From contig MEOH01000013.1 of NCBI GenBank assembly GCA_001769535.1, positions 17,838 to 81,837 of the forward strand: a DNA stretch of 64,000 nucleotides, given 5' to 3'. Shown in pieces: positions 33,246 through 58,468 of the stretch. Source of the DNA: Bacteroidetes bacterium GWF2_38_335. GTDB taxonomy: Bacteria; Bacteroidota; Bacteroidia; Bacteroidales; GWF2-38-335. The notes under the pieces were generated by a model. That model was not told the DNA's origin, ran no database searches, and was given only the letters and a program-made list of their open reading frames with translations. Position 1 is the stretch's first letter. Each line of letters opens with the position of its first letter. The position numbers and the translations under genes were made by a program.

Positions 33246-36200
33246 ATGAAAATACTACTTATTATTTCTATTGCCTTAATGGCCCTAAAAGTTAATGGAC
33301 AGGAATCCAACTTTAAAACCGTTCATCAGGAAGAAGCAGAATATTATAATAATCAGATATTTGATGGAGATTATAGCACGATAAATATTCCTGCTGATAT
33401 AAGCTCACCAAAAGAAAAAGCATGTTCCCTCGAAAAAATCGTTTATGGATGGCATCCTTACTGGATGAACGGACTGGAAGCCAATTACGACTGGTCAATG
33501 CTCTCTCATCTTTGCTATTTTGGCTATGAGGTAAATCCTGCAGATGGCGGAACATCTGATTCCCATAACTGGTTAACAACTTCGGTTGTAACTAATGCTC
33601 AAAATGCCGGAGTAAAAGTTCATCTTTGTGCAACCATGTTTTCTGACCATGCCACTTTTTTTGGAAGCACTGCAGCAAAACAAAATTTAATCAACAATCT
33701 TATTTCCTATGTGAATTCAAGAAATGCTGATGGTGTCAACATTGATTTTGAAGCTGTACCTTCTACCCAATCGGCAAACCTTACCGCTTTCATGATTGAC
33801 CTTTGCAACCAGATGCACGCTGCCATTCCCGGCTCCCAGATAACCATTGCCCTACCTTCTGTTAACTGGAGCGGAACCTTTGATGTAGCCTCCATGGCTC
33901 CATATGTTGATATTTTTATCATCATGGGATATGATTATTATTATGGGGGAAGTACCACTGCCGGACCAACAGGCGGATTGTACAATCTGACTTCTACCTA
34001 TACTTACTGCCAGTCGAAATCCATTAATTACTATCTGGATGCAGGAGTTCCCGCCAGCAAACTGGCACTTGGAGTACCTTATTACGGAAGGGAATATGTT
34101 ACCGCCGGGGCCACTCCGCCTTCATCTGTAACCGGAGCATCAACCACCCGGACTTACAAATACATTATGGCTAATTCAACAGGTTATTATAATCAATCGG
34201 CCAAATTATGGGAAAACAATTGTTTCTCACCTTACTGGGCTTATAATGATGGAAACTGGAATCAATGCTTTATTGATGATGTTATGAGTTTGGGCAAACG
34301 GTACGACATGGTTAACAGGCGCGGTTTGGCCGGAATCGGCATCTGGTGTCTTGGAAACGACGATGGGTATAGCGATTTGTGGAACCTGATTTCAGATAAG
34401 TTTTCAAACTGTGCCACCACACCCTGCACCGATTCCATTTTTGATATGGGCGGTCCGGCATGGAATAATTATGACAACGAGGTTTATACCTATACCATCT
34501 CTCCCACCGACGCCACATCACTTACCTTGAACTTTGAAAACTTTGAACTCGAAGCAGGGTACGATTCTCTTTGGCTGTATGACGGACCATCTATTGCTTC
34601 TCCGCTTATAGGAGGATATTCAGGAACCACCTCTCCGGGGCTGATCAGCACAACAGGAAACTCACTTACCGTTAGATTTTACTCGGACAATGCCACAACA
34701 CGAACCGGATTTAAAGCAGTATGGCAATGCATCTACGACAATATAGTTCCAACCACATCCATTTCAGCCAGCACCTGGGTTACAGATGATTTTACTGCCA
34801 CCTTTACTGACAATGATAATTTAGCTCTTGGTGAGCTTTATTACCAGGTTTTGGATAATAATGGAATCGAATGGAGGGCAAACAACAGCCGTGGGTTTTT
34901 CAATGATAATTTTAGTGCAGTCATTCATCCGGATTGGCAGCAGGTATCAGGTACCTGGGTGATTAATTCGGGCCGGCTGAATCAAACAGTTGAAGCGAAT
35001 TCAAATACCAACATCTACGCTCCGGTAACTCAGGATGACTCAGAAACATGGCTATTCCACTGGCAGATGAACATCGGGGGAAGCGGAACAAACCGCCGTG
35101 CCGGACTTTATTTTTTCAGCGATGATGCCAGCATGGATCAAAGGAACAATGCCTATATGATCTACTTCAGGGTTGATAATAATAAATGCCAGATTTACCG
35201 GGCAACAGATAACGCTATTGTCATTCAAACCGACGATGATTGCACCGTTGCAGCCAACACGTTTTACGATTACAAAGTAACCTATAACCCTACATCTGGC
35301 GAAATTAAAGCGTATCAAAATAATGTGCTCGTATCATCATGGATTGATCCTGACCCTCTGACGGCAGGCAGTTTTATATCTTTAAGAACCGGCGATTGCA
35401 ATGTTTTGTATGATGACCTAAAGATTTATAAATCAAGGGCAAATACCTCTGATATTTCTGTTGGCGAAGTGTCTTCGGATGAGGTAAGGTATCAAAATTC
35501 AGCACCCACTTCACCTTCATGCAGAATCAAATCGGTGGTTATTGATGAGAGTGAAAACTGGTCGGTTATTGCAGGATTGGATGTAAATGTGGACTGGACT
35601 CCGCCGGTTAACGGAGGGTTTATCAACGATGGAATTTCAACTGATTTGGACACTACAACAGTTACAAACGAATTGTCGGCAAACTGGGAAGCAGCTGCGG
35701 ATGTTAATTCAGGAATTTTGCGTTATATGTATGCTATTGGCGACGGGCCCGGATTGACCAATATTGTTGGCTGGACCGATGCAGGTACTGATGTTTCTGT
35801 TACCCATAGCGGACTTAGTCTGACTTACGGCACAACCTATTATTTTCAGGTGAAAGCGCAAAATAATGCATACCTTGAATCGGCAGCTATTCAATCTGAC
35901 GGCATTTACATTAAGCCACCGGTAACCTTGCCTGATGCGGGCTTTTCAACCCTTTCGACAACCTATTGCACAGGTGAAGAAATCCAGTTTATTAACACCT
36001 CGTCAGATGCAACTTCATCATTTTGGACATTTGAAGGAGGAACACCCGGAACAAGCGACATTTCAAACCCTGTAATTATTTATGACAATCCGGGGACATA
36101 CGGCATTAAACTGGTTGTCAGCAATAGTTTTGGAAGCGATTCAGTTGAAATTTCAGATTACATCACCATTATTCCTTCACCGGTAGCCGGTTTCACAGTA

Positions 36201-36710
36201 AACACCACCGAAGGGGATGTGCCACTGATGACACTTTTCACAAACAATTCGGTGAATTCCACATCCTATTTATGGGATTTTGGAGATGGAAGCACCTCAA
36301 CAGATCTTAATCCGTACCATTATTATAATGAGCCGGGAGTTTACAGCGTAAGTCTTACAGCATTTGGGGGAGATTGTCCGGAAAACGTTGTTTTATACAC
36401 CGACTATATCACCGTCAATGATACAATTACTTATACGGAAAACATTTCCAACGGAACTTCAGTTTCAGTATATCCAAATCCCTTTAAAGACAAATTAAAC
36501 ATTCTATTGGATGGTTATGAAGGAAAAAAAATCAGCATTATTTTGACCGATATATTGGGGAAAGTGTCAGAATATAGTGTCATACCTGAAAATAATGAAT
36601 TTGAATTGCCCCTTGAAATAAACGGCTTGGGGGAAAGTGGAATAATCATGCTTCAGGTTTATTCTGAAAATGAAATGATTATCAGTACGAAACTCGTCAG
36701 GATAAATTAA
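33246..36710 (+). CDS. Secreted GH18 glycoside hydrolase with CUB, PKD and T9SS tail
   Basis: The 1154-residue protein has a signal peptide (MKILLIISIALMALKVNG). A GH18 barrel spans about 64-390: strand VYGWHPYW, then catalytic motif D162-GVNIDFE-169 with Glu169 as proton donor, and a later MGYDYYYGG. A CUB-like domain (about 395-495) follows, then a concanavalin-like region, a fibronectin-III-like region, two PKD domains (SFWTFEGG, LWDFGDGS) and a T9SS tail (VSVYPNPFKDKLNILL). GH18 enzymes cut beta-1,4 bonds next to N-acetylglucosamine, either in chitin or in the chitobiose core of N-glycans. With the glycoprotein locus nearby, an endo-beta-N-acetylglucosaminidase role is possible, but a chitinase-type role is equally open. 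It is exported to the cell surface. Confidence 0.85.
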   Translation: MKILLIISIALMALKVNGQESNFKTVHQEEAEYYNNQIFDGDYSTINIPADISSPKEKACSLEKIVYGWHPYWMNGLEANYDWSMLSHLCYFGYEVNPADGGTSDSHNWLTTSVVTNAQNAGVKVHLCATMFSDHATFFGSTAAKQNLINNLISYVNSRNADGVNIDFEAVPSTQSANLTAFMIDLCNQMHAAIPGSQITIALPSVNWSGTFDVASMAPYVDIFIIMGYDYYYGGSTTAGPTGGLYNLTSTYTYCQSKSINYYLDAGVPASKLALGVPYYGREYVTAGATPPSSVTGASTTRTYKYIMANSTGYYNQSAKLWENNCFSPYWAYNDGNWNQCFIDDVMSLGKRYDMVNRRGLAGIGIWCLGNDDGYSDLWNLISDKFSNCATTPCTDSIFDMGGPAWNNYDNEVYTYTISPTDATSLTLNFENFELEAGYDSLWLYDGPSIASPLIGGYSGTTSPGLISTTGNSLTVRFYSDNATTRTGFKAVWQCIYDNIVPTTSISASTWVTDDFTATFTDNDNLALGELYYQVLDNNGIEWRANNSRGFFNDNFSAVIHPDWQQVSGTWVINSGRLNQTVEANSNTNIYAPVTQDDSETWLFHWQMNIGGSGTNRRAGLYFFSDDASMDQRNNAYMIYFRVDNNKCQIYRATDNAIVIQTDDDCTVAANTFYDYKVTYNPTSGEIKAYQNNVLVSSWIDPDPLTAGSFISLRTGDCNVLYDDLKIYKSRANTSDISVGEVSSDEVRYQNSAPTSPSCRIKSVVIDESENWSVIAGLDVNVDWTPPVNGGFINDGISTDLDTTTVTNELSANWEAAADVNSGILRYMYAIGDGPGLTNIVGWTDAGTDVSVTHSGLSLTYGTTYYFQVKAQNNAYLESAAIQSDGIYIKPPVTLPDAGFSTLSTTYCTGEEIQFINTSSDATSSFWTFEGGTPGTSDISNPVIIYDNPGTYGIKLVVSNSFGSDSVEISDYITIIPSPVAGFTVNTTEGDVPLMTLFTNNSVNSTSYLWDFGDGSTSTDLNPYHYYNEPGVYSVSLTAFGGDCPENVVLYTDYITVNDTITYTENISNGTSVSVYPNPFKDKLNILLDGYEGKKISIILTDILGKVSEYSVIPENNEFELPLEINGLGESGIIMLQVYSENEMIISTKLVRIN

Positions 36711-39888: not shown

Positions 39889-42800
39889 TTAATAAACAGA
39901 AATTTTCTTTACTATCTGTGAGTCATCGCTCACAATCTTCATATAGTATAGTCCTTTGGAACAGGAATTCAAATTAAATTCCCGAACGAAATCTTCATCA
40001 ACAGTGTAATTACCTTCGGTTATAACATTTCCCAGTGCATCATATAAAAAGACTGTAACTTTACCTTTATAACCACTTAGGAATAAAGTAACATTTCCGT
40101 CTGTAGGATTTGGATAAACTTCGGCAGTTTTCTGTAATGAAAGTTCGTTTACATTTGAAACATCACCAATTGTGAAAGCATAGTGAATTGAACGGCCAAA
40201 CTCCTTTTCAAAATATTTAAGAATGCCGCCACCAATTTTTTTAATACGCATATAGCCAGTGCCCTGTTCGGGATAAGCCCAATAATAAAGCCCGTCATTC
40301 CCAAGGTCCATAAGTTCCAATTCATAGCAGCCCGGCTCAAGATGAAGTGTATCGTAATAAGTTGTATTTGCAATCAGTCCGGTTTTACTGTGAACAATAT
40401 TCCCGTTTATGTCATAGATATTATAATAATTTTCGTCAGGCAGATTATTACTACGCATAAGTATGATAAAATTATCCTCATAAAAGTCAGGTGCATTGAA
40501 GTGGGTTGAATAACCATCATTGATATCATACTCATCGGCACCTCCATTGGGATCGCTGACCGTCGCGGTGAAAATACTATTTTCGTCGCCAATCCAGAAT
40601 TCTTCTGAATTAACAGGCAGTTCAACCTGTTCTGTTTCCATAAAACCAAGGCTACCGGTCCAGTTATACACAAGTTGCGTTCCGCCCGACACACCATAGG
40701 TAATATTCAGTCCGTTCAACTCAGTGCTTCCATTATTTCTGATTACAATTTTCGGATCGGAGCAAACGGGGTTATTCCTTGAATAATACTCCCAGTCGGT
40801 GGGAGTTAAAATGTCGTAAACTTCAGCGTCCAGACTGTAATTAGGGGAAGCATACTGGAACATATCCATAGTTACCACGTAATTACCCCATCCCATTCCA
40901 AGATTTGCAGCCGGAACGTTGGTAATATCATAGTCAACTTTAATCGAGTCACCAGAAATATAATCGCCCACTTCAAAATCAGTATCCTGAACCACATCTC
41001 CGGGGCACCATCCTTCTCTGGCTCCGGGCCATGTTCCTCCCTGAGGATAAACTGCATTCAATGCACATTCATTGTACTTAAATATTTTCCAGGAATCAAC
41101 CATTGCTCCATTTATGAACAAGTAATGGGTATTGTCTTTCCATTCGCAGCAATGAGGATAACTGCCTGTATTACTGTTATGTCCATGTCCGGTAAGGCGG
41201 GTTTTTATTTTGATGGATTCAGTAGCGGGATCAACCGGAATGGTTTTTTCCTTTAGCACCACATCATCATCAAGATCTTTATAATAGTATGATTCCATTT
41301 GTCCCCAGATGCGATCCATTCTGGTCAGGTTTCTTGGAGGAGTTCCTTCAATCAGCAAAAATTTAACATCAATAAGTTCCTGATTATTTCCTGCAGCAAA
41401 ATCCACTGAATCGTGCAATAAAAAGGCATAATCAGTTACATCATAAGCCCATCTGAAACCGTTATCACCAAGATCAAGTCCGATGCCATAAGGAGTAATA
41501 AACCTGCCAAGTTCATAGCGGTTAATAACATCATAAGGTTCGCCCCAGTAGTACATTGTATCAAGAACGAGATTAACTGAGGGATCCACCAATAGAGAAT
41601 CGGCAATTGTATCATGATCATAAACATATACATATCCGGCAGGCCACACAAGAAGTGTATCTGTTGCAAGCGGCAGAATTGTTGTGTCATTAAAAAGCAT
41701 CAGGGTAACCGGAGAAACCATTACTGAATCGAGAAACATGAGAGAATCAAGATGAAAGTTATATTCGCCCTGAACAAAACCAATATTTGGTCTTTCACTG
41801 GTTACCTGCAGGTTTCTAAACAGTTCATCACCTTTCAATGATTTTCTGTCGGGTAATCCAAAAAGCATTGCATCATTTCCTGAACCCGTATTGTCATCGG
41901 CATATAATCCCGATCCCTCGTCAAAACGGTAGTATGCAACCAAATCAGAGTAGGCAGGATGTGAAGGATCGATATTTTTATACATCCATGAAGCAATAGT
42001 AGGTTCATCCAGAACAGTATCAAAAACAGCAAACTCGTTAATAAAACCATCATAATTTGTACCCCCCCACACGTTGCTGCCAATCCGGAATCTGGAAATC
42101 TGATCCATATCCCTGTATAAAGCTGTTCCTGAATGCCATAGAACGCCGTTCAGGTATATTTTCATTGTACCTTCATCCACATTTTTTGTAAAAGCCCAGT
42201 GATTCCATTTGCCTTCAAAATCGGTTGTCGCGGCTGCTTTATAAATTCTGTCATAACCGGTTGCATTTCCGGCATCCCAATAAACATTGCTGTTGCTCCA
42301 GGGAAGGTGAACATTTAAAACCCTGTTTCCGGCAGTGTTCATTGCCTCAAAGCAGTAATCATCCTGGGGTTGAATTGCGGGGTCGCCAAACTGCCAGAAA
42401 GAAACAGTCACAAAGCTGTCAATATCAGCAAGCGGGGTAACAGGAACATCAACATAATCGGGACCGTTAAACGACAGATATTCATCTTCAGAAACAGAAA
42501 ACAGGCCTGAGTTAAACCCGGTTGAACTGCCTTTAATTTCGGTTGATGTACCTGTTGTTGGATTGGAAAATGTAAATTCAACCAGAATACCAGAGATACC
42601 ATCCCATAAAAAAGGTTCAGAAAAATTGAAAGTAAACAATCCGGTTGAAGAAAAGGTCGTATTTTGGAGATATACAGTAGTAAAACCCGTATTTTCAAAA
42701 TCAGTTAAAGTCAGTTCAGACAGAGCTGAGTTCTTGAGATTAATTTTAAGATAATCAAGAGCAGATCCCAAACTGCTTATATCCATCTGTAATTTATTAA

Positions 42801-43344
42801 TTTCACCCGGGGACAATCCGGCTGCACTGAGCTCAGCAGCAGTGAAAAGGTATCGGGCCCGGGAAGTTTTGAGAACAGAATTAAAAGTATGGTCAAGATC
42901 AAGAGTACCTGTTCCTACGCTGTAGGTATTTTCGGAAATCACATCATCGTAAACAGGAAAATATTGCCAGTTTTGAAAATAGTTATATACAGGCACAACG
43001 GAGTATTCATAGGTTGCCGGAGAGCTGCCATTGACAGAAAACGACGGATGGTTAAGCAAAGCCGAATCAATAATTCCGGTGTGGTCGTAGATGAAATTAT
43101 AGGTAAGATAATCCCACTCCCCGCAATCATAACCGTCGGCTGTAGTGGCAGGATCGCATTTTAACGTATAGTACATCAGTACTTTTCTGTATGAATGAGA
43201 CTCATCAGGAAATTCCCAGATGCCACGTCTTTTTGTTATATCACTGAAGGTCAGAGTCTGAACAACAATAGTATCACCTGGATCAGAAAAAGAATCTGTT
43301 AAAAACAGAAAAATAAATGCAAGAAATAAAGTCAGTTTTTTCAT
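39889..43344 (-). CDS. PNGase F-like protein interrupted by a LamG-containing insert, T9SS tail
   Basis: The 1151-residue protein has a signal peptide (MKKLTLFLAFIFLFLTDSFS). Residues about 24-90 match the start of PNGase F (IVVQTLTFSDI, YTLKCDPA, CGEWDYLTYNFIY). Asp78 fits the catalytic aspartate of flavobacterial PNGase F. The next matching block (ELGRFITPYG) comes only at about 613, followed by YDVTDYAFLL, LTGHGHNSNTG, CCEWKDNTHYLFIN (Glu734 at the family glutamate position) and EGWCPGD. Between lie a beta domain and a LamG-type lectin domain (DYVDVPVTPLADIDSFVTVSFW, KIYLNGVLWHSG). A T9SS tail (AEVYPNPTDGNVTLFL) ends it. PNGase F releases N-glycans by amide hydrolysis of glycosyl-asparagine. 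It lies 148 nt behind the regulator gene, at the end of the glycan locus. Confidence 0.8.
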   Translation of the reverse strand: MKKLTLFLAFIFLFLTDSFSDPGDTIVVQTLTFSDITKRRGIWEFPDESHSYRKVLMYYTLKCDPATTADGYDCGEWDYLTYNFIYDHTGIIDSALLNHPSFSVNGSSPATYEYSVVPVYNYFQNWQYFPVYDDVISENTYSVGTGTLDLDHTFNSVLKTSRARYLFTAAELSAAGLSPGEINKLQMDISSLGSALDYLKINLKNSALSELTLTDFENTGFTTVYLQNTTFSSTGLFTFNFSEPFLWDGISGILVEFTFSNPTTGTSTEIKGSSTGFNSGLFSVSEDEYLSFNGPDYVDVPVTPLADIDSFVTVSFWQFGDPAIQPQDDYCFEAMNTAGNRVLNVHLPWSNSNVYWDAGNATGYDRIYKAAATTDFEGKWNHWAFTKNVDEGTMKIYLNGVLWHSGTALYRDMDQISRFRIGSNVWGGTNYDGFINEFAVFDTVLDEPTIASWMYKNIDPSHPAYSDLVAYYRFDEGSGLYADDNTGSGNDAMLFGLPDRKSLKGDELFRNLQVTSERPNIGFVQGEYNFHLDSLMFLDSVMVSPVTLMLFNDTTILPLATDTLLVWPAGYVYVYDHDTIADSLLVDPSVNLVLDTMYYWGEPYDVINRYELGRFITPYGIGLDLGDNGFRWAYDVTDYAFLLHDSVDFAAGNNQELIDVKFLLIEGTPPRNLTRMDRIWGQMESYYYKDLDDDVVLKEKTIPVDPATESIKIKTRLTGHGHNSNTGSYPHCCEWKDNTHYLFINGAMVDSWKIFKYNECALNAVYPQGGTWPGAREGWCPGDVVQDTDFEVGDYISGDSIKVDYDITNVPAANLGMGWGNYVVTMDMFQYASPNYSLDAEVYDILTPTDWEYYSRNNPVCSDPKIVIRNNGSTELNGLNITYGVSGGTQLVYNWTGSLGFMETEQVELPVNSEEFWIGDENSIFTATVSDPNGGADEYDINDGYSTHFNAPDFYEDNFIILMRSNNLPDENYYNIYDINGNIVHSKTGLIANTTYYDTLHLEPGCYELELMDLGNDGLYYWAYPEQGTGYMRIKKIGGGILKYFEKEFGRSIHYAFTIGDVSNVNELSLQKTAEVYPNPTDGNVTLFLSGYKGKVTVFLYDALGNVITEGNYTVDEDFVREFNLNSCSKGLYYMKIVSDDSQIVKKISVY

Positions 43345-43492: not shown

Positions 43493-45643
43493 TCAATCTG
43501 TTTGTTTTAATTCCTTTAATAATTCTTTTGGAAAATTTCTTGAAACAGGTATTTTAAAATCAAGGTCCTTTAATGTTAATTTATACCCCTGAGAGTTTCC
43601 CGAAACCTTCTCAATTTTATTTGTGTTTACGATATAAGATTTATGGCATCTGATAATTTTTTCATACTCTTTTAACTGATCTTCAATAACTTTCATGGAT
43701 ATTAACATGAGAGTTTTTTTGAGTTTCTTATTATTTATATAATTAAACTCTGCATAATTTCCCTTTGCTTCGGCGCAAATAAACTGTGAAAGCAAAATCT
43801 GAATATCCTCTTTTGATTTATCTGATTTAATGTGAATAAGATGGTCTTCAAAAGGTTTTTCCACGTTTTTTAGATGGTGCGAAATAACTTTTGCAATTTG
43901 TTCATGCCTGTTCAGGTAAATTTTCTCGATAAAGACAATAATCAGAAAAACCGGGAAAATTGTCAAAGAAAAAACGACAATCAGCACATCGAAAAAGCTA
44001 ATTGAAACCAATTCGTCAATTCCATAAAAACGGGCATAATTATAGCCCACGGTTGAAATTCCGATAAGCATAAAAAATACAAACAAGACATATTTTACCA
44101 CGTCCCATTTTTCATTTTTTACCCATTTTTCGATCAGATGAAAGATGACAAAGTTCAGGAATAAAATCGACATTGAAATAATACCAAAAGCGGCATAAAC
44201 CATTACTTTAAACAGAAAATCAAGCTCCGACAAACCAAAAGGCTGAAATAAAAACATAAAAAGGGTGAAGTAAATTCCCACAAGAAATACCACACCAACC
44301 TTAGAAAGAATGCCGGCTCCCAAAGAAAACTGTTTGGCCAGTTTAACCCTGTAATTAAATTTGCGGAGGTTACTCAATACCAAAATAATTAAAACCATTG
44401 ATGAAATAATAAAATAGTAAACCAGATTGGTTTTCTTTTTAAGTATTAAAGCTTGAATTTCTCTATCCTTTTCAAGTATTTTTATTTCCCTATCAAATTT
44501 GCGGTCAGAGAGCACAAACTCAAGTTGTGAGATTTTCTTTTCAACATTTTCGTTTGATATTGAATCCTTAAATGCAAAATATTTTTCAGAATATTCAAGT
44601 GCATTTTTATAATCAGAAAGTTTCGCAAAAGACTGATAAATAATAAAATAAGATTCTCGCTGCTGCAACAACAATTCATTGATTTTACTGGTTTCAATTG
44701 ATTGAAGGGCGTTCTCGATTGCCAATTGATAATTGCCCATTTTAAAATATGCCTGACTTACTTTATTTAATGATATGGAAAGTCCGGGAAAATCACTGTT
44801 TTTCCTATACAACTGTTCGCTGGCCAAAAATCGGCTTAAAGCTTCATCATACTTGCCCCGGTCAAGAAAAAAGTCGCCGATAAAATTCAGAATTTGTCCT
44901 TCGCCCTCGTCATTATTTGCCTTTCGGTACATTTCAAGGGCTTTATTGTAGTATTCAAGGGCTTTTTCATCCTTACCGCATACCTCATATGAATTTCCAA
45001 GATATCTGTAGCTTAGTGCAATATGGACTTTTTCGCCCAATTTTTTACGAATATCCAGGGCTTTTTTAAAGTAATAGAATGAGGAATCGCAATTATTTTG
45101 CTCTTTAAAAATCAATCCGATATTATTTGTGGAAGTTGCCTGACCGTACAAATCATAAACCTTTTTAAAGTTTTCATTGGCCATTTCATAATATTTTCTT
45201 GATTTTTCAAATTCCCTTTTTTGAAAATAAATATTTCCGATATTCACATAAACCCATGCATAGCCAAGTCTGTCTGATTTATTTTCAAAATAAAACATTG
45301 ATTTAAAAAAGAATTCCATCGCTTTATCATAAAATCCCTGCTCCTGATATATCATTCCAATAGTTCCATAAACAGGATAAATTTCAGTGGAATTTTTTAG
45401 TTTATATGATATTTCGATAGCTTCATAGGCATAACTCAGTGCCTTAACAGGCGACTTTTTCATATAAAACTGAGCCAGAAAATTAAGCGTACGAATACAG
45501 TTTTCGCTATATGGGTCATCCTGCATCAATCTGTCAAGTTCTCCTTTCAAGCTATCAACATTATCAATATCCTCTGAGTAAATGCCGCTTAATGAAAGCA
45601 GTATTACAAATATTGTCAACAGAAACCGTTTTATCTTTTTCAT
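43493..45643 (-). CDS. TPR - membrane - LytTR transcription regulator
   Basis: The 716-residue protein has a signal-type N-terminus (MKKIKRFLLTIFVILLSLSG). TPR repeats (about 60-370; IGMIYQEQGFYDKAMEFFFKSM, NNIGLIFKEQNNCDSSFYYFKKAL) are followed by a helix and several membrane segments (about 415-560). A C-terminal LytTR DNA-binding domain (about 600-716; HIKSDKSKEDIQ..., IIRCHKSYIVNTNKIEKVSG, FKIPVSRNFPKELL) completes it. This makes a one-piece membrane regulator: an outer TPR sensor linked to a cytoplasmic DNA-binding domain. It starts 2 nt after the NagB-fusion stop, inside the glycan operon, and is likely its local regulator. PULs more often carry hybrid two-component or ECF/anti-sigma regulators. 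Confidence 0.85.
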   Translation of the reverse strand: MKKIKRFLLTIFVILLSLSGIYSEDIDNVDSLKGELDRLMQDDPYSENCIRTLNFLAQFYMKKSPVKALSYAYEAIEISYKLKNSTEIYPVYGTIGMIYQEQGFYDKAMEFFFKSMFYFENKSDRLGYAWVYVNIGNIYFQKREFEKSRKYYEMANENFKKVYDLYGQATSTNNIGLIFKEQNNCDSSFYYFKKALDIRKKLGEKVHIALSYRYLGNSYEVCGKDEKALEYYNKALEMYRKANNDEGEGQILNFIGDFFLDRGKYDEALSRFLASEQLYRKNSDFPGLSISLNKVSQAYFKMGNYQLAIENALQSIETSKINELLLQQRESYFIIYQSFAKLSDYKNALEYSEKYFAFKDSISNENVEKKISQLEFVLSDRKFDREIKILEKDREIQALILKKKTNLVYYFIISSMVLIILVLSNLRKFNYRVKLAKQFSLGAGILSKVGVVFLVGIYFTLFMFLFQPFGLSELDFLFKVMVYAAFGIISMSILFLNFVIFHLIEKWVKNEKWDVVKYVLFVFFMLIGISTVGYNYARFYGIDELVSISFFDVLIVVFSLTIFPVFLIIVFIEKIYLNRHEQIAKVISHHLKNVEKPFEDHLIHIKSDKSKEDIQILLSQFICAEAKGNYAEFNYINNKKLKKTLMLISMKVIEDQLKEYEKIIRCHKSYIVNTNKIEKVSGNSQGYKLTLKDLDFKIPVSRNFPKELLKELKQTD

Positions 45644-45645
45644 TT

Positions 45646-47544
45646 CTAAAAATTATATTTTACAAACAATTCCATTGCTTCATATTCTGCCATTCCAAGT
45701 TTATCATAGAAGTCAGCTGTTTTGCGATTTCTTTCTTCGGCACGTTGCCAGAATTCTCTGGAATCAAAACCCGGAAACAGTGCTTTATCTTTTTGCGACT
45801 GGTGTTTAAAAATGGCACGTCGTTTTTGGATAAGTTCATGCGGACTTAAAGGCACAGCCATATCCACATCATTAATATCCCATTCCTGCCATGCACCACG
45901 GTATAGCCAAAAATAACAGTCTTTCATCCATTTATCCTTTTTAACCACCTCAAATGCCTTAAGTATAGCTTCAAAGCAAACGCGATGTGTGCCATGAGGA
46001 TCCGAAAGATCTCCTGCCGCATAAACCTGATGGGGTTCTATCTCCCTCAGCAAGTCGGCAATGATGCTTATATCTTTTTTGCTTAAAGGTTTTTTTCGTA
46101 CAGTTCCTGTTTCATAAAATGGCATTTCAAGAAAATGAATATTTTCTTTTTTTACTTTCATATACCGGCAGGCAGCCTTCGCCTCTCCCCTTCTGATTAT
46201 TGCTTTAATGTTGATAATTTCGGGTGAATCTACCTCTGCCGGCTTCTTGTTGCTTAGTGATTTGAATATTTTATTATAAAATTTTTCATCGTTTCTGACT
46301 TTTTCAGGGAAATATGATTTATCAAGTTCATCCACAAAATCAAGAAACCTCACCACATCATCATCAAAAACCGCTATACTTCCTGATGTCTGATAAGCTA
46401 CATGCACCTCATGCCCCTGCTGCACAAGTCTGAGCAGTGTACCACCCATTGATATTACGTCATCATCGGGGTGCGGACTAAATACCAATACTTTTTTCGG
46501 ATAGGGTTTTGCGCGTTCGGGACGATTTGAATCATCTGTTTTTGGCTTTCCACCCGGCCATCCGGTGATTGTATGTTGCAAATCATTAAACACCTTGATA
46601 TTAATGTTATACGCCGGTCCATATTGGGTAACCAAATCACTCATCCCGTTGTCATTATAATCTCTTTCAGTGAGTTTTAGAATGGGCTTTTCAACACGGT
46701 CGCACAACCAGACAACTGCCTTACGGATCACCCTGTCAGTCCACTCGCAATCACCAACAAGCCATGGTGTTTTTATCCTTGTAAGTTCAGAAGAAGATGC
46801 CTTATCAAGAAAAATTTTAGCATCAGGATGTTTTTGGAGATAGGTCGCCGGAACAGAGTCGGATATTTCCCCCTCTACAGTTGGCCTGATAATAGCGGAT
46901 TTTCCTTCACCCCAGGCCATCAGAATTATCTTTTTGGAATTCAGGATTGATCCGATCCCCATGGTAATTGCTCTGCGGGGTACATTTTCTTCGCCAAAGA
47001 AATCGCTTGCTGCATCTGTAATGGTAAGGTGGTCAAGGGTAATTAAGCGGGTTTGCGAGTTTACAGGCGATCCGGGTTCATTAAAACCTATATGACCTGT
47101 GCGGCCGATCCCTAAAATCTGTAAATCAATGCCTCCGGCTTTTTTGATTTTATCTTCAAACTCCCTGCAATAAGAATGAATTGTATTTTCAGGAATTGTA
47201 CCGTCGGGAATGTGCACGTTTTTTCGGATAATATCAATCCTGTCAAAAAGATGCTCATTCATAAACCGGTTGTAGCTCTGAAGTGAATCCTTTTGCATGG
47301 GATAATATTCATCAAGATTGAAGGTAATCACATTTTTAAAACTCAGACCTTCTTCTCTGTGCATTCTAACCAATTCTTCATAAACACCAACGGGTGATGA
47401 ACCGGTTGCCAAACCCAGGACACAGTTTTTCTTTGACTTTTGTTTTGCTTTGATCACCGAAGCAATTTCAGTGGCTACAGCTTTTGATGCTTCATGTGAG
47501 TTGGAATAAATTTCGGTTTTAATTTTTTCGAAACGGGTATTCAT
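45646..47544 (-). CDS. NagB-type glucosamine-6-phosphate deaminase fused to a PIG-L deacetylase domain
   Basis: In this 632-residue protein, residues about 1-270 are a NagB fold: LGLATGSSPVGVYEELV (43-59), FNLDEYYPM with Asp78, GIGRTGHIGFNEPGS (145-159) with His151 and Glu156. Thr149 stands where E. coli NagB has the catalytic Asp141, so standard deamination may be altered. Residues about 345-632 are a GlcNAc-PI/LmbE-type deacetylase: VFSPHPDDDVISMGG with the His358 and DDD metal cluster, and DLSDPHGTHR. This fusion occurs in Bacteroidota. The pair could convert N-acetylglucosamine phosphates by deacetylation and deamination. It lies 15 nt after the PNGase-like gene, as expected for an N-glycan locus. 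Confidence 0.88.
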   Translation of the reverse strand: MNTRFEKIKTEIYSNSHEASKAVATEIASVIKAKQKSKKNCVLGLATGSSPVGVYEELVRMHREEGLSFKNVITFNLDEYYPMQKDSLQSYNRFMNEHLFDRIDIIRKNVHIPDGTIPENTIHSYCREFEDKIKKAGGIDLQILGIGRTGHIGFNEPGSPVNSQTRLITLDHLTITDAASDFFGEENVPRRAITMGIGSILNSKKIILMAWGEGKSAIIRPTVEGEISDSVPATYLQKHPDAKIFLDKASSSELTRIKTPWLVGDCEWTDRVIRKAVVWLCDRVEKPILKLTERDYNDNGMSDLVTQYGPAYNINIKVFNDLQHTITGWPGGKPKTDDSNRPERAKPYPKKVLVFSPHPDDDVISMGGTLLRLVQQGHEVHVAYQTSGSIAVFDDDVVRFLDFVDELDKSYFPEKVRNDEKFYNKIFKSLSNKKPAEVDSPEIINIKAIIRRGEAKAACRYMKVKKENIHFLEMPFYETGTVRKKPLSKKDISIIADLLREIEPHQVYAAGDLSDPHGTHRVCFEAILKAFEVVKKDKWMKDCYFWLYRGAWQEWDINDVDMAVPLSPHELIQKRRAIFKHQSQKDKALFPGFDSREFWQRAEERNRKTADFYDKLGMAEYEAMELFVKYNF

Positions 47545-47559
47545 GGAAATAGTTTTTTA

Positions 47560-49755
47560 TTATAGTTTGATGAAATTCATGGCTTTAACTTTTCCTCCGG
47601 TAACAATCCTGATATGATATAAACCTGAAGAAAGTCCACTTATTTCAATACTTTCAGATCCTGATACAAATTTTGAATCTTTGCTCAGCATTATTTTTCC
47701 CTGTTGATTGAATACTAAAATTTTTACCCCCGAATCCAAACTTTCATTTATTCTGATTGTCAGATTGTCGGAAGCAGGGTTTGGATATATGGTAATTGAA
47801 TTGTCTTTCGAAGACTCGGTTATTTCGGTAAGCGGACTGTCAGAATATGTTACCAGATATGCCCTGATCCTGTAAAATGGCTCGGTATGCGAACCATCAT
47901 TGTATCCGGTATTTAAAAGATTTGTATAATCCTGAAGCACATAATCGAGGGCAATATCTGCGCCCGGAGTAAAATATCCGTCAAGGTCAAAATAGTCGGG
48001 TTGAACATCCTGACCGGGGCACCATCCTGAGCGTGACAATGTCCATGTTCCATACTGGTCTGAACAGGAATTTGAACCACAATCAGCTTTCCAAAAATCA
48101 TGTGCAAAAGTTGGAGATCCTGACACCCAAAGGTTATGGACTACATGTGAAAATTCAGCTGCGTTATCGGTATTTCCCTGTCCATGGCCTGTAATAGTCA
48201 TTCTAACCTTAGCTTTCTGCGCATTTTCATGAATTGTTTGGGTAAAAACCGGAAGGTCATGGGAAACTCCCGGATCTCCGTACACCCAGTGCTCAGCATC
48301 CCAGAGCTTATCAATTTTGATATAATCCCATTCGGGTATTCCCGGAACAAGCTCAATTTCAACTGTTACCAGCCATCCCGAAGCACCCCACACCTGGACA
48401 TAAGACACAAATTCAGATGAACCTGAAAGCAATGATTTGAAATCAGTTATATCATAAGTCCATCCACCACAGGCTTTCCCGTAAGGAGTAATGTATCTTG
48501 CCAACTCATACTGTTCAAGTCCCTTTTTCAGAAACACCATTCCGGCCTGATCCCATGGATCACATCCCCCGGCTGGACAGGTTAGATCAACATGAAGCAA
48601 AATCTGACTGTATCCGCTTAAATCACCGGCTACGCTATAAAGAACAGTATTGATCTGTCCATATGCACCAAAATTATGCTGCTGTGCATTGAATAAAACC
48701 TGGTTTTCGACAGGTGAAATAGAAGTAGATAAAGTATCGTTGAAATGATTCTGATCTTCAGAATGAGCTGTGTATGATTTAATGTCAATGGTAGAAATTC
48801 CAAGCAGGTTTTCTGTTCCTGAAAATGTGTGAATATATGTTCCGAAGGGAGGAATCACTGCCGAGATTGTTTCGGTAACCGGACTGCCCCCGTTTATTCT
48901 ATAAACCACATCAAAGCCGGTAGCGTCCTGTGTGGAAAAGTTTTTTATTTCAACCTGAACAGCTTCGCTGGTGGTGTAGGCCGGACCAATCTGGTAGGGC
49001 GCAGCAATCCTGACAACCCCCACATCTTTGGTTGCCGGCTCAAAACCTGGCACCCAGTCTGAGGCCGGAGTCATATTCAACATGGTGCCATTGTTTCCAT
49101 TACCTGTTACATCGGTAACTGTGCTTCCTGTTCCCTCATTAAAATTCCAGTACGCAACCAATCGGTCTTCTGTTCCGGTTAATTCACCGGTATAATTATC
49201 TACTATTTCAGTTTCTGTGCGGGAAGTATCCCATATTCTTATCTCATCAATAGTTCCCTGAAAATTTCTTCCTCCCCAGGTTGGGTTGTCTCCCATATAA
49301 AGGATTGTACCTGTTGATGCACCGTGCGTACCAGAGCATGGGGTTTCAGTCTGAAGAATCCCATTAATATATATTTTCACGGATGATCCGTCATAAACTC
49401 CGGCCAAATGATACCATGAATACAATCCCATGATGGGATCGGTAGTAGCAGTGACCCATAAACCTTCTACAGAAACGGTAAACTCCGCTTTTCCACCTTG
49501 TCCGGCAGTCAAACAATAGCTTCTGTCGGGCGATGTGGCCTGTTTTGAAATGATTGACCCGGCATAAACATTACTCTCCCAGTAATCTGCTTTTATCCAT
49601 GCCTCTACTGTAAAGGATGTTACAGGATTGAGTTCCGGAGCGTCGGCAACACCAATTTTATCATTTAAACCATCAAGTTGAAGTGCAAAATTCTGAGCAT
49701 TTACATTGATCAGCATTAAACAGAAAACACTAATGATCAGGGTTACTTTTTTCAT
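47560..49755 (-). CDS. LamG plus PNGase F-like amidase, T9SS tail
   Basis: The 731-residue protein has a signal peptide (MKKVTLIISVFCLMLINVNA). A LamG lectin domain spans about 22-215 (FTVEAWIKADYWESN, VKIYINGILQTETP, IDEIRIWDTSRTETEI). A PNGase F-like unit follows (about 350-650), here continuous: GGCDPWDQAGMVFLK with Asp402, ELARYITPYG, YDITDFKSLLSG, ITGHGQGNTDNAAEF with Glu534, SRSGWCPG. The third catalytic position, a Glu in TETW of PNGase F, reads YVQVW, so Gln454 replaces it. It ends in a T9SS tail (ITIYPNPASDNLTIRI). It probably acts at the cell surface on glycoproteins. It starts 7 nt after the upstream LamG gene. Confidence 0.85.
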   Translation of the reverse strand: MKKVTLIISVFCLMLINVNAQNFALQLDGLNDKIGVADAPELNPVTSFTVEAWIKADYWESNVYAGSIISKQATSPDRSYCLTAGQGGKAEFTVSVEGLWVTATTDPIMGLYSWYHLAGVYDGSSVKIYINGILQTETPCSGTHGASTGTILYMGDNPTWGGRNFQGTIDEIRIWDTSRTETEIVDNYTGELTGTEDRLVAYWNFNEGTGSTVTDVTGNGNNGTMLNMTPASDWVPGFEPATKDVGVVRIAAPYQIGPAYTTSEAVQVEIKNFSTQDATGFDVVYRINGGSPVTETISAVIPPFGTYIHTFSGTENLLGISTIDIKSYTAHSEDQNHFNDTLSTSISPVENQVLFNAQQHNFGAYGQINTVLYSVAGDLSGYSQILLHVDLTCPAGGCDPWDQAGMVFLKKGLEQYELARYITPYGKACGGWTYDITDFKSLLSGSSEFVSYVQVWGASGWLVTVEIELVPGIPEWDYIKIDKLWDAEHWVYGDPGVSHDLPVFTQTIHENAQKAKVRMTITGHGQGNTDNAAEFSHVVHNLWVSGSPTFAHDFWKADCGSNSCSDQYGTWTLSRSGWCPGQDVQPDYFDLDGYFTPGADIALDYVLQDYTNLLNTGYNDGSHTEPFYRIRAYLVTYSDSPLTEITESSKDNSITIYPNPASDNLTIRINESLDSGVKILVFNQQGKIMLSKDSKFVSGSESIEISGLSSGLYHIRIVTGGKVKAMNFIKL

Positions 49756-49762
49756 ATCTATT

Positions 49763-51271
49763 CTATTTAATAATTAATTTTTTAATTGTTTCATTGGTTT
49801 TGTCGGTCAATCGGACCAGATAAAAACCAGATTTCAGATGACTGATGTCTGTATTTTCAATCAAACTGTCTATTTTTTTATTCATTACTGTCCTTCCTGA
49901 AAGATCAATAATCGAAAGTTCAAATCCATTGGCATTTTTAACAGTAATCAACTCGTCGGCCGGATTGGGATACATTTCAACAAGCAATTCCCTTGAAATT
50001 TCGGAAACACCTGCAGGATCAGCAAGTTTTTCAGAACCCTGACCAAGAGAATAATAGCCATCAGATAGCTGAACATTATTAAAATACACATAATAATATT
50101 CTGAATCAAAATAAGCAAGGTCGGCAGAGTGCAGCGGATAAAATTCGCCCAGTATTTCATCCCATTTTAAAAGAGTGTAAAGCGAATCGGGTTGGAAAAG
50201 TGTGAGTGTGTCTCCAGGTGCCGCATTTTCCTTAAGATCAAATTTAAGAGTTGAAGTAAAAGAGCCACCTTTATTTACGTACCAAATGGTTTTAAGCATT
50301 TTGAAATCTGCAGGCGCAACAGCCGGAATATTTTCTGTGGTTGTTCCTGTGGAATCATTGTGACCGGCAACCACGTATTTTCTGAATTCTTTGTCATTAA
50401 TATCTGCAATAATGGTGAGTCCGTTCAATGTATCAATATAATTGAACTGGGAGTTTCTTTTACCAAACCATGCGGCCTGGACATCATGCATTGAATACAT
50501 CATTGAATCTCCAACAGGAGCATAGGATGTTTCCCACCAAAAACATGGTTGATCATATTTTTTAATTACCCCGTTATTACCATTTGGCGACTGGTCGAAG
50601 AAAACAGAATCCTGATTGTTGTTGAAATCATAATAAGCAACCAGTCCGGGTTCATCGCCATTCAACTGTTTGTGCTTATAGGAATTTATTTCTGCTTCAG
50701 TCCTTTCAGAAGACCAAACCCTGATTTCGTCGATATCACCGTAATACACAAAAGCGTAATCCCATGGAGCCCTGCCGATTATGAATGGAGCGTCATTTGC
50801 CGGAATGGGATTTTGAGGAAAAATATCAGATGTTCCCTGCAGCACACCATTAATATACTCTTTAAGCTGACCGTTATATGCGTAAGTCACACTCAGGTGC
50901 ACCCAGGCTGAATCTTGCGGCAATGGCCCGGTTCCGGGATACACCACCGAGAAGGTAGCCGGATTCATAACTTCAGTATATACGTTGAGATTTTGAAATC
51001 CCATTACATATCCGGGCTGGAGTTCGGGAGGAAGTTTTCCGCAAAGCTTCCGGTTTTCGCCAAAAGAATATGCCCTGACCCACATCTCGATTGTTAGATA
51101 CTCTCCGGTATTAAACAGATCGCTGTTACCGCAATCGCCATGCACATCAGGGTAACCGAGGTCATCCCAAATCAGGTAATCATTATAATAGCAATTTCCG
51201 GAAGATGTTTCCTGTGCAGAAAGAAACACAACCAGAACTCCAAAAATAATTGTAAGTAAGCTTTTTTTCAT
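49763..51271 (-). CDS. LamG-domain secreted protein with T9SS tail
   Basis: The start is taken at MKKSLLTIIFGVLVV (51271), 13 nt after the SusD stop, because the longer frame overlaps that gene and lacks a signal peptide. The 502-residue protein has one LamG domain (about 30-215; LTIEMWVRAYSFGENRKLC, GQLKEYINGVLQG, IDEIRVWSSERTEAEINSY). A beta-rich middle without a known motif follows, then a T9SS tail (VEMYPNPADELITVKN). It carries no PNGase motif. It is probably a surface glycan-binding protein working with SusD and the amidases encoded next to it. Confidence 0.85.
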   Translation of the reverse strand: MKKSLLTIIFGVLVVFLSAQETSSGNCYYNDYLIWDDLGYPDVHGDCGNSDLFNTGEYLTIEMWVRAYSFGENRKLCGKLPPELQPGYVMGFQNLNVYTEVMNPATFSVVYPGTGPLPQDSAWVHLSVTYAYNGQLKEYINGVLQGTSDIFPQNPIPANDAPFIIGRAPWDYAFVYYGDIDEIRVWSSERTEAEINSYKHKQLNGDEPGLVAYYDFNNNQDSVFFDQSPNGNNGVIKKYDQPCFWWETSYAPVGDSMMYSMHDVQAAWFGKRNSQFNYIDTLNGLTIIADINDKEFRKYVVAGHNDSTGTTTENIPAVAPADFKMLKTIWYVNKGGSFTSTLKFDLKENAAPGDTLTLFQPDSLYTLLKWDEILGEFYPLHSADLAYFDSEYYYVYFNNVQLSDGYYSLGQGSEKLADPAGVSEISRELLVEMYPNPADELITVKNANGFELSIIDLSGRTVMNKKIDSLIENTDISHLKSGFYLVRLTDKTNETIKKLIIK

Positions 51272-51284
51272 ATTTAAAATTGTT

Positions 51285-52781
51285 CTAATTGTTCCACCAT
51301 AATTTTGTAAATTCGTTATCAGCGCCCTGCACTGCAATTGCTTTTAAATAGTTTTCACGGTTAAGGGTTGTTTCAGAATTCGGGTAAATAAATCTTTTTG
51401 GGAAAATTGACTTTTCGATTTCTGTTCCGTCATAATTTTTTAATACAGGAAATCCGGTCCGACGATATTCGGCATAAGCCTCATAACCGTTTTCAAAAAC
51501 AAAACTCAGCCATTTTTGTGTAATAATATCTTCGAGTGTGCAGGTTGTTATAGATGAGAGATAGCTGTCAATCTGCCCAGATGTTATCAGGACAGAGCCA
51601 TCTCCATGCAGGTTATAAAATTCCATATTTGCTCTGATCCCGTTATTTAAAAGAGTTTGGGCATCAGAAAGTGAATATGCACCGTCCAATGAGGCCTCTG
51701 ACAAAAGAAAGCAAACCTCAGCGTAACTTAATAAAACACCAGGCGTGTTATCGCGCAAAAACCAATTTCCTATGGCAGAGACATCACGCCAGTCATCATC
51801 AAAAGTACTCCAAACCGGATCGGAATTGGGCAATAAATTTGGAATTCCCTGATATTCATCATACCATGGATAATCAATTGACATCACAGTTTTTTCAAGG
51901 ATGACACTTATTCGGGGATCATTTGTTGAAACAAGCATATCAACAAGAAATTTACTTGGATTATTCTGTGCAGCTGCCTGATTGGTATACCATGCCTCAT
52001 AAAGATGATTTTTTTTCTGACCATTAAAAGGGAACAGGGCTGATTGTTCATTTGATGAAATAAGATCTTTTCCTGAGAGATCATCCATTTCCTCCAGATA
52101 CCGATCGTGATCTGCATTTTTAATACGGGTTGCCAAGCGCAATCTGAGTGAATTGGCGAATCTTATCCAGCTGTTGATATCTCCACTGAAAATCAAATCA
52201 GCATCAGCATTGAAGAAAGGTGCCGAGCTGTTAAATGACAAGGCAGCATTTTTCAACTCATCCAGCATATTCAAATAAATTTCATGCTGTTGATCGTAAC
52301 CCGGAGCATAATTCAGGTCTGAGTAGCCTTTAAGCGCATCAGAATAAGGAACTGCTCCCCAAAGATCAGTGAGACGGTGAAAAAGGAAAACTTTCCAGAT
52401 TCTGGATGCCGATTTTTTATTAACCATGTTTTCATCGTTTCCTGAAATATTTATAACCTCCTGGATTTGCATGAGCGCATTAATATACTGTTCGTTCCAA
52501 AAAGCATCCTTGCCGCTTGGGATCACATATTCATTGCCAGAAATCACACCACCGCGTGCCGCCAGATACATCACCCAATTCATTAATCCCCATTGTTCTA
52601 CATTGACATCTGAATTATAGCTTCCGGCGCCTTCCTTCAATGATTGCTTAAAAAGATAATCGGGATTTATGGATGTTTGGTCATTAGGATTCTCATTAAG
52701 CCCGGCCAGATCTTTTTTGCAGCCTGCAAAAACTGAAAAAACCAGAATAATTAATAGTATATATTTTATAACTCTCATCAT
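51285..52781 (-). CDS. SusD/RagB-family glycan-binding lipoprotein
   Basis: In this 498-residue protein the lipobox VFSVFAGC (Cys21) is followed by LAGLNENPNDQTSINPDYLF, typical of the SusD-like_2 family. TPR-type helices and SusD markers follow: WGAVPYSDALKG, NDGDWRDVSAIGNWF-like stretches around residue 340, and a late YEAYAEYRRTGFPVL. SusD partners the SusC porin and holds the oligosaccharide over its channel. The ORF has two adjacent Met codons; MRVIKY is the likely start. It lies 3 nt after the SusC stop. The locus suggests N-glycan-type ligands. Confidence 0.92.
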   Translation of the reverse strand: MMRVIKYILLIILVFSVFAGCKKDLAGLNENPNDQTSINPDYLFKQSLKEGAGSYNSDVNVEQWGLMNWVMYLAARGGVISGNEYVIPSGKDAFWNEQYINALMQIQEVINISGNDENMVNKKSASRIWKVFLFHRLTDLWGAVPYSDALKGYSDLNYAPGYDQQHEIYLNMLDELKNAALSFNSSAPFFNADADLIFSGDINSWIRFANSLRLRLATRIKNADHDRYLEEMDDLSGKDLISSNEQSALFPFNGQKKNHLYEAWYTNQAAAQNNPSKFLVDMLVSTNDPRISVILEKTVMSIDYPWYDEYQGIPNLLPNSDPVWSTFDDDWRDVSAIGNWFLRDNTPGVLLSYAEVCFLLSEASLDGAYSLSDAQTLLNNGIRANMEFYNLHGDGSVLITSGQIDSYLSSITTCTLEDIITQKWLSFVFENGYEAYAEYRRTGFPVLKNYDGTEIEKSIFPKRFIYPNSETTLNRENYLKAIAVQGADNEFTKLWWNN

Positions 52782-52784
52782 CTC

Positions 52785-55700: not shown

Positions 55701-56006
55701 CTGAACAACATTGGGGGCAAGTTGAACAGAAAGAGCAGTTTGCCCTTTTATTGCAATTTCCTTATTATTATAGCCAATAAATGAAAAAACAAGGGTATCG
55801 TTCTGCGAACTTGTTTTGATGTTGAATTTCCCGTCAATATCTGTAACCGTTCCTATTTTAGTACCTTTTACTAAGATATTTACACCGGGCATAGGCAATC
55901 CATCCTCCAGGGATGTTACCTTTCCGGTAACACCCTGTGAGTAGGATAAATTAAAACCTGTTACACTAATTAAAACGACTATCTGTATTAACTTAAAAAA
56001 ACTCAT
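52785..56006 (-). CDS. SusC/RagA-family TonB-dependent outer-membrane transporter
   Basis: The 1073-residue protein has a signal peptide (MSFFKLIQIVVLISVTGFNLS). A carboxypeptidase-regulatory-like domain comes first (about 25-110; TGKVTSLEDGLPMPGVNILVKG, GTVTDIDGKFNI). The plug region follows with SVANSLSGKVAGLQV, IVVDGVPIDNS and ISVLKGASASALYGSRASNGVILITTKKG, and then a long TonB-dependent barrel that ends in GVSLNFNF. No N-terminal sensory (STN) domain is seen, so signalling through an anti-sigma factor is unlikely. It imports large oligosaccharides with TonB energy. It starts 34 nt after the ROK kinase stop. Confidence 0.95.
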   Translation of the reverse strand: MSFFKLIQIVVLISVTGFNLSYSQGVTGKVTSLEDGLPMPGVNILVKGTKIGTVTDIDGKFNIKTSSQNDTLVFSFIGYNNKEIAIKGQTALSVQLAPNVVQLESVVVTALGIKREEKSLGYSVDEVKGDEVNTNKEVSVANSLSGKVAGLQVTATNGSAASSSRVVLRGNNSFNNNQALIVVDGVPIDNSTVSNSEDEWGGKDFGNGISDINPDDIESISVLKGASASALYGSRASNGVILITTKKGVAGKGVRIGFSTSSTLDKAYIHTNFQDVYGAGSDGKFETHWKLDSAGVPHYYADQASYYGSWGPKMDGQDIYDWDGKKKKFLPQPDNYKEYFRSGYTINNSVSIDGGSKKISLRGTISDLRNNDIIPGSSVNRTNIGLNTNINLFKRLFIQGYVSYVFQKAENRAALANSLNNPARNYTVMPRHISTQSLKDNIMNADGEEQTWYMVWNWQTNPFWNDTYELSMDKKDRTFGNLSANWKFSEVFNLLVRTAQDYSWHHFENIGAYNGLISSTGSYSYNNIERWQTNTDFLLSYIHKLNDKLNLTYNFGGNALYDKVNSASASTSVGLVDPYVYSIENSIGIPARNKTLHEKAVNSLYAFAQVDYKRFLFFDLTGRNDWSSTLPEENNSYFYPSISSGFVFTELLPENSKRKKVFPYGKIRASWAKVGNDTDPYQLDITYYQDSNDVYGTYGYIVKQIPAKDLKPEELVSREIGTDLRFFTNRIGLDFTYYNTNSFNQIVGVDVSSASGASRALINAGNIRNSGIELQLKTKPIAKDKWNWQLNFIYTKNNSEVIELAEGIDNLQILEHWGLSIEARPGHPYGDIVGYGIQRDGTGKKLVDENGLYLRTDTTVVLGNINADFAFSVKNAVSFKSFTLSFLIDARIGGEMFSGTNMYGNGYSGNFIESLEGREEWYASEEARIAAGIDPDEWEATGGYLAEGVYSEGTVIDGVDVSGQPNETYINPFNYWNQFASWTNEIHEPFVYDASFVKLRELSFSWTLPEKIAAKIKMKNASVSIIGRNLWLIYSKVPNVDPESFHTNGNGQGYELYSFPTRRSIGVSLNFNF

Positions 56007-56040
56007 TTTATATTATTATTTGGCATTGATAAACCTTTGC

Positions 56041-57141: not shown

Positions 57142-57144
57142 AAG

Positions 57145-58341: not shown

Positions 58342-58360
58342 TTGGTTTATAGTTTAGTTG

Positions 58361-58388
58361 TTCTTGTTTGTTCTTGTTTGTTCTTGTT
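58361..58388. repeat. 10-bp tandem repeat before the MFS gene
   Basis: The unit TTCTTGTTTG repeats almost three times, 20 nt upstream of the MFS start. The repeat is outside any coding frame and could vary in length. Confidence 0.7.
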
Positions 58389-58416
58389 GTTTAGATATTT
58401 TTGATGTTTGTATGCT

Positions 58417-58439
58417 GTTCCAAGTTTCTAACTTGGAAC
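58417..58439. promoter_or_regulatory. Perfect 10-bp hairpin between GH92 and MFS genes
   Basis: The stem GTTCCAAGTT with AACTTGGAAC closes a 3-nt TCT loop. It lies 30 nt after the GH92 stop and about 75 nt before the MFS start. No T-run follows, so it may process or partially terminate the transcript and separate expression of the two genes. Confidence 0.5.
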
Positions 58440-58468
58440 TTGGAAACAGTAATTACTAATTACTATTT

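Follow-up and report, generated by a model that had tools for sequence, protein, structure and literature searches.

N-glycans are routinely removed with PNGase F, the standard tool for this purpose. The enzyme of Elizabethkingia meningoseptica (structures 1png, 1pnf and 3pms) folds into a double jelly-roll, with a catalytic Asp in a WD motif and a Glu in a CxEW motif. These features are shared by P0001, the protein described here, encoded at positions 39889-43344 of a 64,000-nucleotide stretch of contig MEOH01000013.1 from Bacteroidetes bacterium GWF2_38_335 (this whole stretch is indicated below as the window). The two proteins differ in that the hairpin of PNGase F carries no insert and the enzyme has Glu118, apparently not kept in P0001, and in that its solved chains contain neither a lectin nor a type IX secretion system (T9SS) tail. 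In P0001 the catalytic unit is split by about 515 residues, which include a LamG domain. One lectin domain inserted in a catalytic fold is reportedly found in the Vibrio cholerae neuraminidase.

The same fold as P0001 is found in PNGase F-II, PNGase Pm and the B. fragilis and B. vulgatus PNGases (4r4x, 7zgn, 3ks7 and 4qhb), which likewise feature accessory parts and an altered Glu118 position (PMC9522356). The PNGase fold is also shared by zebrafish lysosomal Ngly2 (9lwg) and by the six PNGases studied in PMC12381499. These enzymes carry accessory modules, some of them over the active site; the modules described in the available text lie outside the catalytic unit, and the word "insert" is absent from the main text of PMC12381499. 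Appended modules have been described in PNGases (PMC12381499, PMC9522356, PMC12753239), and variable loops in PNGase jelly rolls have been named (PMC8812541).

The insertion of ancillary domains into carbohydrate-active catalytic domains is also already known. In some members of the CE20 esterases the catalytic domain is split by a beta-sandwich and the halves close, as in P0001; CE20 enzymes are, however, SGNH hydrolases, their insert contributes to the active site, and no LamG cartridge is described in the available text (PMC12313940). In the GH33 sialidases NanI and NanJ of C. perfringens a domain is likewise inserted in a sugar-cleaving fold, away from the active site; here the fold is a beta-propeller, and neither a series of nested states nor an exchange of lectin types is described in the portion available (PMC11525138). 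Within the open literature, subscription papers and preprints being outside the search, no description of a nested LamG or of a split PNGase was found.

The split catalytic unit and its closure in the model

Sequence and model make it likely that P0001 is a secreted, T9SS-dependent and probably active deglycosylase of the PNGase F superfamily, with a discontinuous catalytic domain and an exchangeable LamG cartridge; catalysis, binding by LamG and the influence of LamG on substrate choice are what we infer, whereas the split, its closure in the model, the nesting, the apparent losses and the LamG types follow from sequence, model and tree. The split is directly visible in the sequence: CGEWDY occupies residues 74-79 and GRFITPYG residues 613-620, the insert proper, itself nested, running from about residue 93 to 604. 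An earlier note on this DNA, made from the letters alone, had described a PNGase F unit broken after CGEWDY, a beta domain and a LamG between the two pieces, and a continuous unit in the paralogue at 47560-49755. All of this holds: the unit resumes at YELGRFITPYG about 515 residues later, a beta-sandwich (144-284) and a Laminin_G_3 match (residues 294-451, 53.1 bits with a cut-off of 27.6) lie within the insert, and PNGase F aligns unbroken to residues 367-644 of the paralogue, whose LamG is N-terminal (31-184). Pfam also reports N-glycanase_C in P0001 (residues 698-809, 38.1 bits with a cut-off of 25) but not N-glycanase_N; the nested insertion explains why no N-terminal PNGase domain was given. 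The T9SS sorting domain at the C-terminus scores 57.1 bits for PF18962 and 52.3 bits for TIGR04183.

P0001 was modelled by AlphaFold2 from a 48-row alignment, with a mean pLDDT of 87.8 and a pTM of 0.53. The earlier note had proposed superposition of such a model on PNGase F as a check, to be failed if the N-terminal segment and the C-terminal unit did not assemble into one PNGase-like fold; since both pieces superpose jointly on 1png, this outcome did not arise. By VIA-align the match to 1png has Z 25.4 and a root mean square deviation of 3.2 over 281 of 310 residues, with a model range of 24 to 834. Further PNGase structures follow (9lwg Z 24.0, 7zgn 21.7, 4r4x 21.6, 3ks7 21.2), the PNGase F-II, PNGase Pm, B. 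fragilis and B. vulgatus structures together covering Z 20.4-21.7. VIA-align bridged the insert, unlike Foldseek alone, which aligned only 242-249 PNGase F columns (TMt 0.56-0.58 in the three best-ranked chains). The model of a relative with an insert of only about 110 residues matches 1pnf with Z 26.8 and a deviation of 2.7 over 282 aligned residues (model 3 to 405).

The insert-less relative L064 leads to the same arrangement: residues 1-86 of the query are joined directly to 608-1150, and L064 aligns with PNGase F in a single run, CGEWD falling on CDEWD and CCEW on CAEW. Asp78 and Glu734 of P0001 (codons 43111-43113 and 41143-41145) occupy the same alignment columns as the acids of these L064 and PNGase F motifs. 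Given the 1png superposition, the one-run alignment of L064 and these shared columns, LamG is truly nested within the enzyme unit. The model supports the two pieces as parts of one PNGase F fold, and the double jelly-roll predicted from a single chain assigns P0001 to the PNGase F superfamily.

W77-D78-Y79 gives the equivalent of Asp60, an Asp between an aromatic residue and an aromatic or positive one, and Glu734, within C-x-E-W, that of Glu206. The columns of Trp77-Asp78, His720, Glu734 and Arg776 are invariant over 36 aligned proteins from all three insert classes described below, as is the WCPG of R..WCPG. In a looser count over the 94 classed proteins, WD and R..WCPG are present in 94 each, [CAG]E[WF] in 92 and GH[GA] in 86. 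In zebrafish Ngly2, replacement of either of the two equivalent acids abolishes all activity (PMC12753239).

Insert classes, nesting and LamG types

Domain searches of 395 genomes of the phylum detected N-glycanase_C in 61, and a search for related loci returned 63, many matching query residues 1-1150. Before counting, 23 overlapping or cut loci were excluded and identical open reading frames (ORFs) removed; the distance between the core parts was then measured by hidden Markov model (HMM) in 104 different proteins. Ten had no measurable N part: six cut at contig ends, the window paralogue, L135, L090 and L084. The others fall into three classes, with the core parts 1-11 (10 proteins), 106-112 (9) or 497-534 (75) residues apart and nothing between. 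The 75 long-insert proteins are that of the window, 56 from species-level genomes, whose taxa include Flavobacteriales, Bacteroidales, Saprospiraceae, Ignavibacteria, Kapaibacterium and Chloroherpeton, and 18 others. The split, carried by 75 of the 104 PNGase-type proteins, is thus an old, conserved architecture, and the PNGase hairpin is shown to accept 0, about 110 or about 515 residues. A third PNGase-type protein of the window genome (L117:1470-3116, minus strand, contig C16, 548 aa) is insert-less, with no aligned region resembling a T9SS tail.

The long insert contains the short one. The HMM built from the nine inserts of the 110-residue class finds 46 of the 75 long inserts at E <= 1e-3 and not one of 75 shuffles; with the limit at E <= 10 the figures are 71 and 6. 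In 69 of these 71 the back half falls at insert position 400 or beyond, and in 33 both halves are in their expected places. For the window insert the whole match has E 1.3e-10, the back half (model 39-99 at insert 447-505) a domain E of 2.7e-8. Because the control set contained family duplicates, its best matches do not count as genuine controls and the shuffles are the cleaner comparison; the sole unrelated match shown from it is a GH18 ORF, at E 0.64. Since halves of the short insert are found at both ends of the long ones, the short insert is, by sequence, an outer shell, inside which a block of about 380 residues, beta-sandwich plus LamG, is placed.

For the beta-sandwich, no Pfam family scores above its cut-off, and its HMM finds no match among 1039 other ORFs of the related loci. 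The module recurs, however, in many large Bacteroidota ORFs, in 32 of 198 genomes, which rules out that it is private to the nested-PNGase family. The LamG assignment rests on profile and fold together: besides the Pfam match, the model of residues 286-510 superposes on the PAPP-A LamG with Z 23.3 (203 aligned) and on pentraxins with Z of about 21.

A tree was built on the core only (55 rows, 514 columns), from 38 of the 75 long-insert proteins, hand-picked for spread, all nine of the 110-residue class and eight of the ten insert-less ones, L130 and L133 being left out for a poor N match or a long branch. The 38 long-insert rows form one 40-row clade (support 100/99) together with two insert-less proteins: L064, whose sister is L030 (99/86), and L002, which belongs to the same genome as the window and is placed inside the long-insert clade (100/95). 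One group of the 110-residue class is sister to this clade (98/94 for the join). A single clade of long-insert rows is rejected (log-likelihood difference 66.4, p-AU 3.4e-6). The simplest account of the tree would be that the block was gained once and, apparently, completely lost twice, each loss restoring a short hairpin.

Within the conserved slot, LamG itself varies in kind. Its identity to the window LamG is 36-50% in 25 relatives and 18-29% in 27, the C-terminal cores of both groups being equally close to the window protein (54-64%). BLAST grouping at >= 100 bits separates the 75 LamGs into four types, T1 to T4 (44, 14, 10 and 7 members). For pairs of the same type LamG identity is 37% at a core identity of 25-35% (13 pairs) and 41% at 62-70% (197 pairs); for cross-type pairs the values are 19% (19 pairs) and 21% (208 pairs). 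For the beta-sandwich the contrast between same-type and cross-type pairs is small (28 vs 24% at core 62-70%). On the core tree the LamG type changes at least six times, the least possible being three; this count rests on the 38 long-insert rows.

Against other T1 slots the T1 LamG of the window scores 142-211 bits; the score is 59 for unrelated LamGs, 48 for a T2 slot and 39 for a T3 slot. The T4 LamG of L023 scores 107.7 bits with an 875-aa ORF from a genome without N-glycanase_C, and no match to 15 T1 PNGase slots was found at E <= 1e-8 in the same genome sample. From these comparisons the LamG slot looks like a swapped cartridge, relatives appearing to exchange LamG types on a conserved core.

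Possible role of the slot and alternative readings

In the first jelly roll, the hairpin that comes after the catalytic WDY motif would act as an insertion slot. A beta module of about 110 residues would first have been placed at the hairpin tip, and the block of beta-sandwich and LamG then at the tip of the module's own long ribbon, the slot being flanked by the two enzyme halves, which close into a single PNGase F fold. LamG may serve as an exchangeable binding cartridge, holding the enzyme to its target, a glycoprotein or a surface; its replacement would change the aim and leave the enzyme unchanged. Chances are about even for the full form of this proposal, in which the WD hairpin is a plug-in slot two deep, filled and emptied without scars, where only LamG is swapped, by recombination with LamGs of unrelated proteins, re-aiming glycan release. 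The nested PNGases also offer a clear example of nested domain insertion combined with apparent cassette exchange, and the apparent swaps and clean losses in relatives suggest that the aiming part evolves separately from the cutting part. A tolerated internal slot with different LamGs, along with natural insert-less members, provides material to test the effect of an accessory lectin on substrate choice.

Several results weigh against the nested, exchangeable slot described here. The pTM of 0.53 refers to the whole P0001 model, and the front half of the window's outer module (model 1-33 at insert 2-34) reaches a domain E of 0.23, weak alone. The placement of L002 is less sure because its branch is long (1.74). 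The number of LamG types changes with the cut: a limit of >= 80 bits gives two groups (68 and 7), and >= 60 bits a single one. The outer module, too, is more alike within than across types (30 vs 22% at core 62-70%). For three of the four types the in-family cross-type median best score lies above the outside median (T1 64 vs 53, T2 75 vs 64, T3 73 vs 70, T4 56 vs 59), the outside set comprising only 20 LamGs, from related loci. Residue 654, aligned with Glu118 of PNGase F, is variable, and an acid appears to be missing there. Finally, the N-glycan gene neighbours reported in the last section are not kept in 63 related loci, except for a TPR-LytTR-like ORF in L043; the context therefore supports the function in the window genome only.

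It is rather unlikely that the insert is just a spacer, or a contact for dimerization or the cell surface, with a LamG that binds no glycan and diverges through lost constraint. Conservation in the insert is indeed far below that of the core (the commonest residue has a mean frequency of 0.35-0.50, compared with 0.59-0.75 over residues 601-900), and the apparent clean losses in L064 and L002 leave intact enzymes. Its length, however, is held at 497-534 residues in 75 proteins, and LamG identity within a type stays at about 37-41% however diverged the cores are, a pattern not expected from loss of constraint.

The earlier note had placed the lectin at the active-site rim; in such a place it could gate or guide substrate into the cleft. 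This position is not supported by the model and seems improbable. In the strand order of P0001, Asp78 is followed by strand 80-92, the insert, and strand 605-616 leading back to ITPYG; both anchor strands, 12-13 residues long, connect the catalytic Asp with the distal end of the hairpin. Because Asp78 precedes strand 80-92 and the insert starts at its other end, the insert would hang at the hairpin end away from the catalytic Asp, as judged from strand order and not from distance. In the model of the 110-residue class, strands 56-67 and 171-181 follow this order too. Strands 120-143 and 521-542, 22-24 residues long, may form a ribbon that would be long enough to fold back and could carry the lectin elsewhere. 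Precedents point both ways: accessory modules are appended over the active site in other PNGases (PMC12381499, PMC12753239) and the CE20 beta-sandwich helps to form one (PMC12313940), while the inserted beta-sheet domain of NanI/NanJ is not near it (PMC11525138).

A catalytic unit that no longer releases N-glycans, P0001 being a binding protein or acting on another amide, is quite unlikely as compared with an active, slot-bearing enzyme. It would fit the apparent lack of an acid at the Glu118 position, and most related loci have no N-glycan genes near by. Yet the Asp60 and Glu206 equivalents, with the His and Arg columns, are kept in 36 of 36 aligned proteins, and the window gene adjoins an N-glycan-type locus. 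Glu118 is moreover a specificity residue, not common to all proven PNGases: in others it is replaced by Asp or Gly, and another Glu takes over (PMC9522356). In P0001 the invariant Glu656 stands two residues past residue 654.

Hardly any credit is left to an unrelated CGEWDY segment beside an incomplete PNGase unit, or to an assembly error: although plain sequence alignment of PNGase F chains to P0001 starts only at residue 609, the joint superposition of both pieces on 1png rules out a truncated PNGase, the same split in 75 proteins rules out chance or artefact, and insert-less relatives join the pieces, so that, as far as sequence and model go, this reading is refuted.

Feature coordinates and genomic surroundings

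Table 1. Location in the window of P0001, its parts and the features compared with it
Feature	Position	Strand	Basis
Nested PNGase F-superfamily protein P0001	39889..43344	-	ORF, 1151 aa, ATG start, no internal stop
First PNGase F piece, residues 22-92, with CGEWDY and catalytic Asp78	43069..43281	-	1png superposition; alignment with insert-less PNGases
Outer module (about 110 residues), front half, residues 93-143	42916..43068	-	HMM of 110-residue inserts (weak alone); strand 120-143
Beta-sandwich module, residues 144-284	42493..42915	-	Model strands; also found in other large ORFs
LamG / pentraxin-like domain, residues 286-510, slot type T1	41815..42489	-	Pfam, structure matches, typing
Outer module, back half, residues 511-604	41533..41814	-	HMM of 110-residue inserts; strand 521-542
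Second PNGase F piece, residues 605-834, YELGRFITPYG...CCEW (Glu734)...REGWCPG	40843..41532	-	Pfam, PNGase F alignment, superposition
Conserved C-terminal beta region, residues 835-1055	40180..40842	-	Alignment, model strands
T9SS sorting tail, residues 1076-1150	39895..40119	-	Pfam PF18962, TIGR04183
Paralogue (comparator): N-terminal LamG, then continuous PNGase F unit, T9SS tail	47560..49755	-	
Likely N-glycan utilisation locus	43493..61426	-	
GH18-CUB-PKD-T9SS, opposite the locus	33246..36710	+	

The genes beside P0001 encode GH92, MFS, ROK, SusC, SusD, LamG-T9SS, the PNGase paralogue, NagB-PIG-L and TPR-LytTR proteins; judged by its gene content, this is likely an N-glycan utilisation locus. 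P0001 would probably be an outer-surface or secreted enzyme that releases N-glycans, with LamG holding it to the target. Elsewhere in the same genome, locus L117 contains a match to the GH92 query (E 2.7e-32).

Some further genes of the window, all on the minus strand, deserve mention. A LamG-T9SS protein (49763-51337) is located between SusD and the PNGase paralogue, and a glucosamine-6-phosphate deaminase is fused to a PIG-L/LmbE-type de-N-acetylase at 45646-47544. A 2880-aa protein at 9445-18087 contains 11 SprB-repeat stretches, PKD and a T9SS tail, and an nSTAND1 NTPase with WD40 repeats is encoded at 20387-23461.

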